From: Commensalibacter papalotli (ex Servin-Garciduenas et al. 2014)
GTDB lineage: Bacteria > Pseudomonadota > Alphaproteobacteria > Acetobacterales > Acetobacteraceae
Reading direction: 5' to 3'
NCBI RefSeq assembly: GCF_000527695.1
Contig: NZ_ATSX01000001.1
Location: 744,001 to 808,000 of the forward strand
DNA: 64,000 bases
The translations under genes and the position numbers were made by a program. A model generated the notes under the pieces. The model ran no database searches and was not told the origin of the DNA. It saw only the letters and a list, made by a program, of their open reading frames with translations. Position 1 is the stretch's first letter. Every line of letters starts with the position of its first letter. Shown here piece after piece: positions 9,192 to 55,410 of this stretch.

Positions 9192-10280
9192 TTAAAAACC
9201 AGTAAGTGGTAAAAATATTTTTATATCAGTTTTACCTTTTTGGCTATGAATATCAATGATTCCTCCATGATCATTAATGATTTTTCCACAAAGTGCCAAT
9301 CCTAATCCTGTTCCATTAGGTCGACTGCTGACAAAGGGCTCAAATAAACGTTGTTTGATAGAATCTGAAATGCCAGGACCATTATCACGAATAATGATCA
9401 TCATAGGCAATGTTACTCTTTTTTTAGCTTTGGAAATATTCATAACCAAATGAGGTTCATATCCAATAATAAGCGTAATCTCTCCATCCTTACGCGTTGT
9501 ACCAATAGCTTCAGCCGCATTTTTAATGAGATTAATAAAAACTTGGATTAATTGATCTTTATCAGCTTTTATCAATGGCAAAGAAGGATCATAAATAGTT
9601 TTGATAGGTATAGTGGAGGCAAATCCATTTTCAGCTATTTTTTTTACGTGTGCTAATACAGAGTAAATATTAACATCACTAATTTGCAAAGTTCGATTAT
9701 AAAAAACGCCTGTTCGATCAACTAGGTTCTTAATTCTCTCGACCTCATTACAAATTAAGGTTGTAAGCTCTTTATCATTTTCATTTAAAGAATTCTCTAG
9801 TAATTGAGCAGCTCCTTTTATACCAGAGAGTGGATTTTTTATTTCGTGAGCAAGCAAAGCAGCCATATTTGCTACACTTCTAGAAACTTTATGGAAGCTT
9901 TCTTTTTCTTCAATTGTTTTAACAATTGAATAATCATGAAGACTGATCGTTATATAGTTTTCATTATTAATAAAAGGCGCAATATATAATGTTATTGGTT
10001 TAATGATCTGATTGTAAGTAAAAATATCGACTTCATATTCAACAATAGCCCTTTTTTTTGCTTTTACTTTTTTTATAAGGTCGGCAACGTCATAGGCTTT
10101 GGGGAAGAATGAGTAGAGAGAATATTGATGAAGGTTTTTTCTCGAAATCATTAAAAAATCTTCAGCAGCACCATTCATATATAAGATATTGTATTGATCA
10201 TTTGCCACAATCAAAGGGGTTGGCAAGGATTCAATAATATCATAGCCATTCGAATCTTTAAGAGGTTCTTGCATTTTCAC
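9192..10280 (-). CDS. ntrB: Nitrogen regulation sensor kinase NtrB
   Basis: This 362-residue soluble histidine kinase has no membrane segment. An N-terminal PAS domain (about 15-130) is followed by a HisKA domain with the phospho-acceptor in ALLAHEIKNPLSGIKGAAQ near 145. The HATPase domain shows the N box (INLIKNAAEAIG), RDNGPGI and NGTGLGLALCGKI. NtrB phosphorylates or dephosphorylates NtrC according to nitrogen status, classically sensed through PII; no glnB is in this window. It begins 5 bases after dusB, the usual nifR3-ntrB arrangement. Confidence 0.95.
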   Translation of the reverse strand: MKMQEPLKDSNGYDIIESLPTPLIVANDQYNILYMNGAAEDFLMISRKNLHQYSLYSFFPKAYDVADLIKKVKAKKRAIVEYEVDIFTYNQIIKPITLYIAPFINNENYITISLHDYSIVKTIEEKESFHKVSRSVANMAALLAHEIKNPLSGIKGAAQLLENSLNENDKELTTLICNEVERIKNLVDRTGVFYNRTLQISDVNIYSVLAHVKKIAENGFASTIPIKTIYDPSLPLIKADKDQLIQVFINLIKNAAEAIGTTRKDGEITLIIGYEPHLVMNISKAKKRVTLPMMIIIRDNGPGISDSIKQRLFEPFVSSRPNGTGLGLALCGKIINDHGGIIDIHSQKGKTDIKIFLPLTGF

Positions 10281-10285
10281 AAATA

Positions 10286-11320
10286 TTAATGAAGTAAAGC
10301 TTCTTGTTGATGTTGAATATTTTGATCGTAAAAGGTCTGAATAGCTGTAATCACGTCTTCAGGATTATCCATTTGATTGATTGATGCCCTAAAAGCAGCC
10401 GAACCATGTAATCCAGCTGAATACCATGAAATATGTTTGCGTGATAATCTGACCCCGGAACGATCACCGTAATAAGATAACATACTGTTATAATGTTTTA
10501 ATAAAATCTCTTTTTGTGCTGGCAAAGAAGGATCATCAAGGATTTCATGATGCGTAAAATAATGTCTTAATTGTGCAAGGAACCAAGGTTTTCCGTAACA
10601 TCCCCTCCCAACCATTAAGCCATCTGCTCCAGACTGTTGAAGTGCGATTGTTGCTGTTTCAATATCAATAATATCTCCATTCACAATGATAGGAATAGAA
10701 ACAGCTTCTTTGACGCTACGAATGAAAGCCCAATCGGCAGAACCACGATAAAGTTGTTGTCGAGTGCGACCATGAATCGTCACCATTTTAACTCCACAAT
10801 CTTCCGCAATTTTCGAAAGTGCTGGCGCATTCAAAGATTGTTGATCCCACCCCATACGCATTTTCAGGGTCACTGGCACGTTAACTGCTTTGACAACAGC
10901 TTTTAAAATAGTTGCTGCTTTTTCTTCGTCCTGCATCAATGCTGAACCTGCTTGTTGACCAACAGCTACTTTTTTAACAGGGCAACCAAAATTAATATCA
11001 ATGATATTTGCCCCATGATCCACAGCGATTCTAGCAGCTTCGGCCATTGCTGTGGGATCAGAACCTGCCAATTGTGTAGAATTTAAACCATCTGTAAGAG
11101 GCTCAGCCATTTGTAAAGTTGTTTTGTTTTCTCGAATAAGCGCCCAAGATGCAATCATTTCAGAAACGACCAGCCCTGCTCCGAATTCTTTTACCAATTT
11201 ACGAAAAGGATAATCCGTTACCCCAGCCATAGGGGCAAGAATAATGGGAACATCTATAATTTTATCTTTGTCTAAACAAATTGGTTTTAATACAGGAATA
11301 GTTTTAGTAGAAATGGTCAC
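10286..11320 (-). CDS. dusB: tRNA-dihydrouridine synthase DusB (NifR3)
   Basis: At 344 residues this is a full-length Dus-family flavoprotein that reduces specific uridines in the tRNA D-loop. It shows the FMN-barrel start [14 protein letters not shown], the catalytic cysteine in [10 protein letters not shown], and [22 protein letters not shown] and NGDI...[14 protein letters not shown]. It is the first gene of the ntr operon, the position that gave it the old name nifR3. It is divergent from ispDF across 130 bases, which must contain the operon promoter. Confidence 0.96.
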
Positions 11321-11450
11321 AATCTTTTGCTTTCTTTACAATCACCTGGCAACATTATCATAATAGCTCTATTATTCAATCTTGAATAAAAGCTTATTCT
11401 TAAATAAAAACACTTAGTAAAATCTTCAATAAGTTGGATATCTTAATTTT

Positions 11451-12611
11451 ATGCGTATAGCCCTTATTATCCTCGCAGCCGGTGTAGGAAAACGTTTCAA
11501 TAAAGATGGAACTGTGCCAAAGCAATATATTCATTTGCTGGGGCACCCTGTCATTTATCATGCCACAAAAGCTTTTTTACCTCACGTAACTTGTATTCAA
11601 CCCGTTGGTGATCCCGATCAACTTTTATCTATTTTGGCACCTTTAAATAGTAACAAAATTTTACCTCCTATTATAGGTGGCGCCGAACGTCAAGACAGTG
11701 TTCGTGCAGGATTAGAAGCTCTAGCGAAGTTACCTGCTGAGAAGCAACCTGATATTGTGTTAGTTCACGACGGGGCCAGACCTAATATTTCTACCGATAT
11801 TATTCTAAGAGTTGTTGAGGCTTTAAAAGATTACCCAGCAGCTATTCCTGCTATTCCTGTAGCAGAAACCTTAAAACGAAATAAAGATCAGTTCATAGAA
11901 GAAACTGTTTCTAGGGATAATTTATACAGGGCACAAACCCCTCAAGGGTTTCAGTTTCAGCCTTTCTTGACAATTCATAGGCAGGCCGCGGGTTCCAGCG
12001 CAACAGATGATGCTGCATTATTTGAAAATGTTGGTCTAAAGGTTGCTATAGTTCAAGGGGATGAAAATAATATAAAACTTACCTATCAGGAAGATTTAAA
12101 AAGACTGGAATGTTTAATGAGTAATATGATGTTACCCAGAGTTGGTGCTGGATTTGATGTGCACGCTTTTGAAAAAGGACGTCCTCTTCATTTATGTGGT
12201 ATAGAGGTTCCTCATGAATTTGGGCTGGCTGGTCACTCTGATGCAGACGTTGGTTTACATGCATTGTGTGATGCAATTTATGGTGCCTTGGCAGAAGGAG
12301 ACATTGGGGCTCATTTTCCACCATCTGATAATCAATGGAAAAATGCAGATAGTAAACAATTTTTAATTCATGCAGGTGAACGTGTACGCATACGTGGAGG
12401 AAAGATTATTAATATTGATCTAACTTTGATTTGTGAACGTCCCAAAATGCGCCCATATATTGATCAAATGCGCGAAAAAGTGGCAGAGCTTTTGCAAATT
12501 GAATTTTCTCGTGTTTCCGTAAAAGCAACAACAACTGAAAAACTTGGTTTTACAGGTAGAGAAGAAGGTATTGCTTGTCAGGCAATGACGAGTATTTTGT
12601 TACCAGAATAA
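11451..12611 (+). CDS. ispDF: Bifunctional IspD/IspF isoprenoid enzyme
   Basis: This 386-residue fusion carries two steps of the MEP pathway for isoprenoid precursors. Residues 1 to about 225 are IspD (MEP cytidylyltransferase): [20 protein letters not shown] and a substrate-binding RAQTPQGF. Residues from about 228 are IspF (cyclodiphosphate synthase): GAGFDVHAF and [21 protein letters not shown] with metal-binding D and H residues, then [11 protein letters not shown] and the terminal [15 protein letters not shown]. The fusion is common in alphaproteobacteria. The gene is monocistronic and ends in a strong bidirectional hairpin. Confidence 0.97.
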
Positions 12612-19854: not shown

Positions 19855-22062
19855 TTAAGAAGTCCAAGACCAATTACGGATCTCGGGCATATCCTGACCA
19901 TGTTCGTGGATATAACGTTTATGTTCTACTAATTTATCACAAACCATTTGGTTTATATAAGCAACTTTTGAACTATTCTTGGCTGTACGATTAACAATAT
20001 TCGCAACCAAGTTATAACGATCTAAATTGTTTAAAACTACCATATCAAATGGGGTTGTTGTTGTTCCTTCTTCTCTAAAGCCATGAACATGGAAATTTTT
20101 CGCATTTGTTCTTTTATAAACCAAAGAGTGAATAAGTTGAGGATATCCATGATAAGCAAAGATCACTGGTTTATCTTTAGTGAAAAGGGAATCAAATGTG
20201 CCATCTGACAGACCATGAGGATGTTGAGATGGTGCAGCCAATGTCATTAAATCAACAACATTAACAAAACGAACTTTTAACTCTGGCATATGTTCATGTA
20301 AGATTTTAACGGCAGCTAATGCTTCCATCGTTGGAACATCACCTGCACAGGCAAGAACAACATCTGGCTCATGCCCTTTGTCATTACTGGCCCATTCCCA
20401 AATACCAACACCTTCAGTACAATGTTTAATTGCAGCATCCATACTGAGCCATTGTGCTTGTGGTTGTTTACCAGCAACAATCACGTTAATTCTGTTACTT
20501 GTACGCAAACAATGATCAGCAATATAAAGCAAAGTATTTGCATCAGGTGGTAAATAGATACGACTAATATCAGATTGTTTTCTGACCACATGGTCAATAA
20601 AACCAGGATCTTGATGGCTAAATCCATTGTGATCTTGTCTCCATACATGGGATGTTAACAAGATATTTAATGAAGCAATTGGCCTGCGCCATTCAACCTC
20701 TTTGGCACCATCAATCCATTTAGAATGCTGGTTAACCATAGAATCGACAATATGGATAAAAGCTTCATAACAAGAGAAGAAACCATGACGTCCTGTTAAC
20801 AAATATCCTTCTAGCCATCCTTCAATTGTATGCTCACTGAGGATTTCCATGACTTGACCTTCATGAGCCAAATGATCATCAAAATCAAAAATCTCTGCAT
20901 TCCAAACACGGTTAGTAACTTCCAAGACGTTATTTAAGCGGTTAGAATTGTTTTCATCAGGAGATAAAACTAAGAAATTATTTTTATTTGCTTTAACAAC
21001 ATCACGCAAGTAACTACCTAAAATACGTGTAGCCTCTCCTTCCTCTCTTCCAGGTGCACTAATAGCCAAAGCATATTCTGTAAAATTAGGTAGTTTTAAT
21101 GCTCGTTTGACTGCACCACCATTACTTTGAGGTATAGCACTCATGCGTTTAAAACCTACTGGGTTTAACGCAGCAATTTCGGGGAATAATTTACCAGATT
21201 CATCAAATAACTCTTCTGGATGATAGCTTTTCATCCATTTTTCTAATAGCTCTAAATGCCCAGGTTTTGTTAAATCACCAAATGGTACTTGATGGGCACG
21301 CCAGAAATCTTCTACTCTTTCGCCTTCGATTGTTTTTGGACAAGTCCATCCTTTAGGGCTGCGCAGAACAATCATAGGCCATAATGGACGATCTGTTTTA
21401 TTGTTTTCTCTGGCATCTTTTTGGATTTGTCTAATTTTATCAAATGCCTCATCAAAAGCGACAGCCATTTTTTGATGCATTTCATTAGGATCATGCCCCT
21501 CTACAAAAATAGGCTCATGACCATAACCATGCATTAAATTTGATAATTCTTCATGAGAAATACGAGCTAGAACAGTTGGATTAGCAATTTTATATCCATT
21601 AAGATGTAAAATAGGCAAAACAGCACCATCTGTTTTTGGATTAACAAATTTATTACTATGCCACGAAGCAGCCAATAGCCCTGTTTCTGCTTCACCATCA
21701 CCAATAACACAAGCAACGATTAAATCTGGATCATGAAAAATCGCACCATAAGAGTGAGATAGAGAATACCCTAATTCACCACCTGCATGAATAGAGCCGG
21801 GAGTGGTTGGTGCGGCATGACTTGGAATACCCCCTGGGAAAGAGAACTGTTTGAAAAGTTTTTGCATTCCAGCTTCATCTTCAGTAATATCGGGAAAAAG
21901 CTCGGTATAAGTTCCTTCAATATAAGTTGAAGCAACAACACCTGGAGCCCCGTGACCTGGACCTGCAACATATAAAATATTTAAATCACGATTTCTAATA
22001 ATACGGTTTAAATATAAATAGATGAAATTTAAACCAGGTGTCGTACCCCAATGTCCCAACAA
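19855..22062 (-). CDS. xfp: Phosphoketolase (xylulose-5-P/fructose-6-P), main open frame after a frameshift
   Basis: This frame encodes residues from the catalytic-His region LGHWGTTPG to the C-terminus: [31 protein letters not shown], the thiamine-diphosphate motif [25 protein letters not shown] and [10 protein letters not shown]-like [11 protein letters not shown]. Phosphoketolase cleaves xylulose-5-P or fructose-6-P with phosphate to give acetyl-phosphate, which AckA (encoded just upstream) turns into acetate and ATP. The frame lacks the usual first 60 or so residues. These are encoded at 22063-22220, split by a one-base deletion. A TTG at 22062 is the only start available without frameshifting. 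Confidence 0.9.
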
Positions 22063-22220
22063 GCGGGGTTTTGTATGTTCTAATTTTAAAGGCTCTCTGA
22101 GAAGCAGATTTTCATTAAATAGATTTGTCCAACGGACAAATAATTAGCAACATGCCACCATTTGTTAAATAGCTCTACTTCTTTAGAAGATAAAGGATTC
22201 TTATTCGTCGTTTTATCCAC
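22063..22220 (-). pseudogene. xfp: 5' end of xfp, out of frame with the rest (one-base deletion near 22112-22115)
   Basis: From a GTG at 22220 the frame reads 36 codons with the phosphoketolase N-terminal pattern ([19 protein letters not shown]) and then meets TAA. Moving one base over right after the ATG at 22115-22113 gives [22 protein letters not shown], the expected continuation. Spacing between IYL and GHWG equals that of Bifidobacterium phosphoketolase if one base is restored (ATGAAAA to ATGGAAAA). The repaired gene would encode about 788 residues. A TTG at 22253 is an alternative start. It may be a true lesion or a sequencing error. Confidence 0.8.
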
Positions 22221-22286
22221 GTCCTTTTTTTTATTATAATCTACAAATATCAAAGTCTTTCATTAATAAAATTGTTGCAGGTTTCT

Positions 22287-23501
22287 TTAATTCTTGGCGA
22301 ACTTCAAAACTTCCTGAAGCATAATCAACTCTTCATTTGTAGGAATAGTCTGAACTAAAATTTTACTTTCTGGTTTACTGATAATCAGATCTCCAGAATT
22401 ATTTGCTTCTTTGTCAATATTTACGCCTAACCACTCTAAAGCTTTACAAACTTCAAACCTCAAAGTTGAAGAATGTTCACCAATACCAGCTGTAAATATT
22501 AAACCATCGAAACCTTGTAAGGAGGTAACTAATCGTCCAATTTCGCCAACCAGTCTATATGTAAATAAATCAAGTGCTTGTTTTGCATAAACTGCATTGG
22601 TGCCGTTTGTATTGACTTCTTCGACAATATCACGCATATCACTTGAAACCTCTGAAACACCCAAAAGGCCAGATTTTTTCCAAATCAAATCTTGAATTTC
22701 ATCAGCAGATAACTTTTCCTCTTGTAGCATATACAAAATAATTGCAGCATCAATATGTCCAGTACGTGTTCCCATGACTAAACCATCAAGCGGTGTAAAA
22801 CTCATAGAGGTATCGATACATTTTCCATTATGAATTGCGGTGACACTGGCACCATTTCCTAAATGTGCAACAATAACTTTACCATTGGCTAAAGGAGAGT
22901 TCGTTTCTTGTAAATATTGGACAATATATTGATAAGACAAACCGTGGAAACCATAGCGCCGTACCCCATCGTCATAATATTTTCTGGGTAATGCAAAACG
23001 TTTTGCATAATCAGGCATGGTTGCGTGAAAAGCCGTATCAAAACATGCAACTTGAACAATTTCAGGTCTTTTATCAAGCATCACGCGCATAGGCGATAAA
23101 CTACCAGGCTGATGTAAAGGTACGAAAGGAGTGAGGGCTTTTAAATCTTCATATACTTTTTCATTAGCAATAGCAGGAGCAGAGTATTTAGAACCACCAT
23201 GAACGAAACGATGTCCAATACCAATAATTTGATCATTGCCTAGATGAGTAAATAGCCACTCCATCGTTTCATCAAATAGGGCACCTCTGGCACTTGATTG
23301 GAAGAGTTTAGGATCTATCCAATTTTTCTCATACAGTATATTTTTTTTATTATCTTTAATGATGAGATGAGGTTTGTTGGTCCCAATCCCCTCTAGCAAC
23401 CCATTAGTGCTACAAACAAACTCTTGCTTTGCATCTTCACGATACAAAGAAAATTTTAGACTTGATGAACCTGCATTTATTATTAATACCGAATCTGCCA
23501 T
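22287..23501 (-). CDS. ackA: Acetate kinase AckA
   Basis: This 404-residue protein is a full-length acetate kinase that makes ATP and acetate from acetyl-phosphate. Motifs include the N-terminal LIINAGSSSLKFSLY, GHRFVHGG, CFDTAFHATMP, HLGNGASVTAIHNGK, the catalytic FTPLDGLVMGTRTGHID and the C-terminal TAGIGEHS. It is upstream of xfp on the same strand, so the pair forms the acetate branch of the phosphoketolase pathway. A TTGACA promoter lies upstream, with a leader of about 137 bases. Confidence 0.97.
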   Translation of the reverse strand: MADSVLIINAGSSSLKFSLYREDAKQEFVCSTNGLLEGIGTNKPHLIIKDNKKNILYEKNWIDPKLFQSSARGALFDETMEWLFTHLGNDQIIGIGHRFVHGGSKYSAPAIANEKVYEDLKALTPFVPLHQPGSLSPMRVMLDKRPEIVQVACFDTAFHATMPDYAKRFALPRKYYDDGVRRYGFHGLSYQYIVQYLQETNSPLANGKVIVAHLGNGASVTAIHNGKCIDTSMSFTPLDGLVMGTRTGHIDAAIILYMLQEEKLSADEIQDLIWKKSGLLGVSEVSSDMRDIVEEVNTNGTNAVYAKQALDLFTYRLVGEIGRLVTSLQGFDGLIFTAGIGEHSSTLRFEVCKALEWLGVNIDKEANNSGDLIISKPESKILVQTIPTNEELIMLQEVLKFAKN

Positions 23502-55205: not shown

Positions 55206-55410
55206 GTAACGTAACCCAATAATTTAAATGCGAATAATTAACTTTTTAATATAAAGTAGCAATAACCTATATATGTCCAAGCTGCAAAAAAAATGTTATA
55301 TCTTTTGAATTATATCAAAATATTTTATATTCTATGATACCATCATTCAATTATAAATCGAACTTTTATAATTCATTCATAATAATATTCATATATAGGG
55401 AGTATTTAAC

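Follow-up and report, generated by a model that had tools for sequence, protein, structure and literature searches.

Evidence for a recently inactivated phosphoketolase gene in Commensalibacter papalotli MX01

The phosphoketolase locus of strain MX01

The window analyzed here is a stretch of 64,000 nucleotides, corresponding to positions 744001-808000 of contig C3 (1,547,573 bases) in the genome of Commensalibacter papalotli MX01 (G000; 2,332,652 bases in 12 contigs). The strain comes from the gut of the monarch butterfly and was sequenced by Illumina HiSeq 2000 at 2,117-fold coverage, with assembly by Velvet (PMC3945503). Its genome is AT-rich. The comparison set comprised nine genomes of the genus, the window genome included, among them C. 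intestini A911 (G002), C. melissae AMU001 (G003) and an uncultured Commensalibacter MAG (G007); five congeners entered the alignment of the phosphoketolase gene xfp. The locus contains the following features, with the evidence for each in parentheses.

22287..23501, minus strand: ackA, acetate kinase, intact and directly upstream of xfp (profile matches)
19855..22211, minus strand: xfp, putative phosphoketolase pseudogene, from the inherited start site to the stop codon (NCBIfam and Pfam matches on the core, congener alignment)
22222..22226, minus strand: AAGGA, leftover ribosome-binding site positioned for the lost start (sequence; duplex of -9.9 kcal/mol upstream of 22211)
22113..22220, minus strand: N-terminal piece in the first frame, running from GTG 22220 as far as the Met that precedes the lesion (frame reading)
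22209..22211, minus strand: ACG in place of the congener ATG start codon (alignment; ATG in 5/5 congeners)
22109..22112, minus strand: A-run at the frameshift site, one base short relative to 5/5 aligned congeners (alignment, frames)
22086..22088, minus strand: premature TAA met by the N-terminal frame past the lesion (frame reading)
22060..22062, minus strand: TTG, suggested alternative start, without a ribosome-binding site (ORF list, duplex energy)
19855..22110, minus strand: core piece in the second frame, from NLLLREPL to the stop codon, with no further stop (frame reading)

The core frame spans 762 open codons in all, or 735 amino acids counted from TTG 22062. Its product matches the NCBIfam phosphoketolase models in a profile search (best score 1327.6 bits), contains the Pfam domains XFP_N, XFP and XFP_C in that order, and also matches the solved phosphoketolases 8io8, 3ahc and 3ai7. 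The window gene differs from phosphoketolase (Xfp/Xpk) in that the first approximately 33 residues lie in another frame and the start codon is missing. The XFP_N profile is accordingly broken across two frames, with positions 27-363 matched in one and positions 3-77 in the other, the latter piece scoring 20.9 bits against a cut-off of 23.7. XFP_N is not complete in any single frame of this gene, while nearly all strong matches in a wider survey begin at profile position 2-9. A genome-wide search returned a single match and no second xfp copy in MX01.

The first-pass annotation had proposed that a one-base deletion splits the phosphoketolase gene, leaving the later coding sequence and ackA intact. 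Both frames are as it described, and all five aligned congeners hold one extra base at the A-run after ATGAA; the core frame is open to 19855, and the profile matches confirm an intact ackA. The deletion thus stands, but the loss of the start codon had been overlooked. The congener ATG corresponds to ACG in the window, so xfp carries two lesions, not one, the deletion at the short A-run sitting 33 codons past the lost start.

GTG 22220, from which the first-pass annotation had read the N-terminal frame, is unlikely to be the inherited start, given that the aligned congeners all start at the ATG aligned with 22211-22209. For ribosome-binding-site duplex energies, the median was -3.8 kcal/mol for 52 other genes of the window and -1.6 kcal/mol for 500 random sites. 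The duplex before the lost start at 22211 reaches -9.9 kcal/mol. For GTG 22220, the ribosome-binding site lies 1 base away, and the duplex energy is +2.0 kcal/mol without the last 4 bases and -5.5 kcal/mol with them. TTG 22062 gives -0.1 kcal/mol, which amounts to no ribosome-binding site.

Sequencing error, bypass or gene decay

A sequencing or assembly error, with xfp intact in the living strain, would be in keeping with a lesion at a homopolymer and an unbroken frame downstream of it. However, the reported Illumina coverage is 2,117-fold (PMC3945503), the A-run is only 4 bases long, and the start codon was removed by a separate substitution that an indel error does not explain. Nor was any other true frame break found in the window. 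Among the ORFs of C. intestini A911 of at least 100 amino acids, 57 of 62 were matched, in a comparison that was confined to the window and would miss breaks near the ends of genes. Two of the 57, xfp and tpiA, were flagged as broken in frame. The tpiA flag (at 55387) was rejected because the upstream ORF of C. intestini is over-extended into non-coding sequence. The xfp gene was the sole flag in the comparisons with G005 (25/57 ORFs matched) and G007 (25/50). In the 53 window genes with a C. intestini orthologue (55,173 bases), runs of at least four identical bases number 1,241 (834 of 4, 264 of 5 and 143 longer). An indel error at a run of four combined with an independent start-codon substitution is unlikely, and the error explanation as a whole, which the first-pass annotation had kept among its options, is judged highly improbable. 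When G005 and C. intestini were compared with each other, a cytochrome gene was flagged and rejected, again owing to an over-extended upstream ORF, and a 100-amino-acid ORF was also flagged as a frame break.

The same annotation had suggested that the lesion might be bypassed by slippage at AAAA or by initiation at TTG 22062, and little was found to support either route. Ribosomal or transcriptional slippage, as in some AT-rich symbionts, would skip the frameshift at the A-run, and both the run at the lesion and the base composition of the genome would suit it. Transcriptional slippage, however, requires runs about twice as long as these four bases, and no canonical slippery heptamer was seen by eye. 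The six congeners with xfp all read straight through the site, which indicates that there is no conserved slippage device; neither a slippery site nor a long homopolymer was found to be kept in these relatives, which have no frameshift. Slippage would also still require a start codon, and GTG 22220 has its ribosome-binding site only 1 base away. This route is hardly credible.

The alternative bypass is a shorter, N-terminally truncated but working phosphoketolase, made at a low level from a new, non-standard internal start (at TTG 22062 or a different weak codon), in which case the core would still be under selection and the gene would not be dead. The core is free of stops, its omega is low, both lesions fall within the first approximately 35 codons, and TTG 22062 lies directly before LGHWG, thereby keeping its catalytic His. 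On the other hand, TTG 22062 lacks a ribosome-binding site, and a start there would drop about 50 residues, some of which (WW, ANYL, IYL and RLL) are identical in all 34 listed acetic acid bacterial sequences. Radical changes at genus-invariant sites (P182L and R761C) are found within the core as well, including close to its C-terminus. A truncated enzyme of this kind is therefore considered very unlikely, though slightly less so than an error.

The sequence evidence instead makes it highly probable that xfp of MX01 is a recently inactivated pseudogene, real and not an artefact. The change of the start codon from ATG to ACG and the one-base deletion near the 5' end would together block synthesis of the full-length enzyme. 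If still transcribed behind ackA, the message would yield from the N-terminal frame a peptide of at most 41 to 44 residues, and phosphoketolase activity would be absent. The locus shares with ordinary recent pseudogenes of host-associated bacteria the early lesions, the open remainder, the open orthologues, the single copy and the absence of the gene elsewhere, and nothing fundamental sets it apart except that xfp was seemingly lost three times within one genus.

Selection and age of the break

Estimates of omega on the window branch, which are rough because synonymous sites are near saturation, varied in their contrast with other branches according to the taxa included. With four taxa and the topology (window,G002), the one-ratio model gave an omega of 0.024 and the window branch one of 0.032 (2dlnL 1.1), indicating no relaxation. 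With the topology (window,(G001,G005)), the order favored by the tree described below, the window branch had an omega of 0.038 versus 0.019 elsewhere for five taxa (2dlnL 4.1) and 0.039 versus 0.017 for six taxa (2dlnL 5.9). Control genes also passed the threshold on the window branch, 2/13 in the five-taxon test (6.8 upward and 6.7 downward) and 1/22 in the four-taxon test (6.5 upward). An omega of 1 was rejected for the xfp core on this branch in the six-taxon test (2dlnL 12.7).

Changes at genus-invariant sites were no more frequent in xfp (10/510) than in 13 control genes of the same lineage (44/2196). Radical replacements, defined by a BLOSUM62 score of -2 or less, made up 3/10 of these changes in xfp (codons 39, 182 and 761) versus 0/44 in the controls (Fisher p 0.005), an excess that becomes weaker when control genes of three lineages are pooled (9 radical among 125; Fisher p 0.045). 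In xfp of the relatives, radical changes numbered 1/8 in C. intestini and 0/7 in G005. At the sites where 98% of 81 phosphoketolases agree, the window gene has two changes, that of C. intestini three and that of G005 four, so that the window shows no excess.

These observations provide a weak indication of relaxed selection on xfp along the window branch, dependent on the taxa and the measure used. Given that the core is still strongly conserved and that signs of relaxation are weak, the break is probably young, and a release from selection late on the branch would fit, though this is unproven. The view of the first-pass annotation that the lesion may be recent is thus probably correct, the core being both unbroken and strongly constrained.

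Loss of xfp in the genus and its metabolic setting

The xfp gene was found in seven of the nine genus genomes, counting that of the window, and a search of these nine did not find it in G001 and G006. All six congeners that keep it have an open frame of 785-793 codons. The ackA gene is present in all seven genomes inspected for it, including G001 and G006, where the next gene lies 255 and 113 bases away, respectively. In G001, approximately 126 bases of the xfp N-terminus persist as a remnant with stops, matching residues 19-45. The remnant is located at L122 6570-6696, between ackA and the next gene. The G006 locus yielded no xfp remnant.

A seven-gene tree of seven genomes, rooted by choice on G003, has the order ((window,(G001,G005)),G002),G006, with G003 and G007 outside and supports of 97-100. 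Because the intact genes of G005 and C. intestini are placed among the three lineages without a working copy, three losses are the simplest account, which suggests three apparently independent losses of xfp in one genus; regain by transfer is a possible alternative. If the losses are independent, the three genomes form a natural series, with the window as the early stage (two lesions, with the core still open), G001 as a later one (a riddled remnant) and G006 as the end (no trace found at the locus). In a genus this small, made up of acetic acid bacteria of insect guts, such a series bears on the question of when the phosphoketolase shunt becomes dispensable. Taken singly, the MX01 locus is ordinary gene decay, and its modest interest is as one of three xfp losses in the genus.

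If phosphoketolase is gone, one source of acetyl-phosphate is lost. The first-pass annotation had regarded this as the main acetyl-phosphate route of the organism, a claim left unsupported by the presence of a phosphate-acyltransferase-like gene. PTA_PTB exceeds the family cut-off in all nine genus genomes in a profile search, and two of the congeners do without xfp. MX01 itself contains a stand-alone gene resembling phosphate acetyl/butyryltransferases (L124 534-1454; G000:C3:1249533-1250453), which exceeds the NCBIfam cut-off of PRK08190.1 and falls slightly short of the one for PRK11890.1 (phosphate acetyltransferase). Its predicted product is a likely further partner of AckA. The pentose phosphate pathway is reported as complete in Commensalibacter, in the part of the source covered (PMC10149009). 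A shunt that became dispensable in the MX01 lineage would fit better than the loss of a main route.

The absence of xfp from an insect-gut lineage has a parallel in the termite-flagellate Bifidobacteriaceae genera Servula and Nutricula, as described in the part of that source covered (PMC11707648). The same portion reports that these genera possess phosphofructokinase, whereas Commensalibacter is reported, in the corresponding part of PMC10149009, to lack 6-phosphofructokinase. The word phosphoketolase occurs 0 times in the main text of PMC10149009. The titles and abstract openings of the literature covered, on Commensalibacter genomes and phosphoketolase, acetic acid bacteria, Gluconacetobacter and symbiont pseudogenes, do not mention the lesion.

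Beyond the genus, a family survey placed XFP_N over its cut-off in 56 of 150 genomes. In 26 of 32 loci of acetic acid bacteria, ackA immediately precedes xfp, and some of the other six are cut by contig ends. Of the more than 570 loci in named genomes, the best 80 were kept, and 78 of these have an unbroken frame that covers 40 or more residues ahead of GHWG and over 650 beyond it. One of the two exceptions is Gluconacetobacter entanii LTH 4560 (L050), in which the xfp frame at 9854-12208 contains one premature in-frame stop, at codon 616 of 786 in the frame read, and is otherwise open. In the other (L086), GHFG replaces GHWG and the stretch read is free of stops. At G021:C1:890325-890531, a genome that also has a full-length match carries a short piece of XFP_N containing one TGA.
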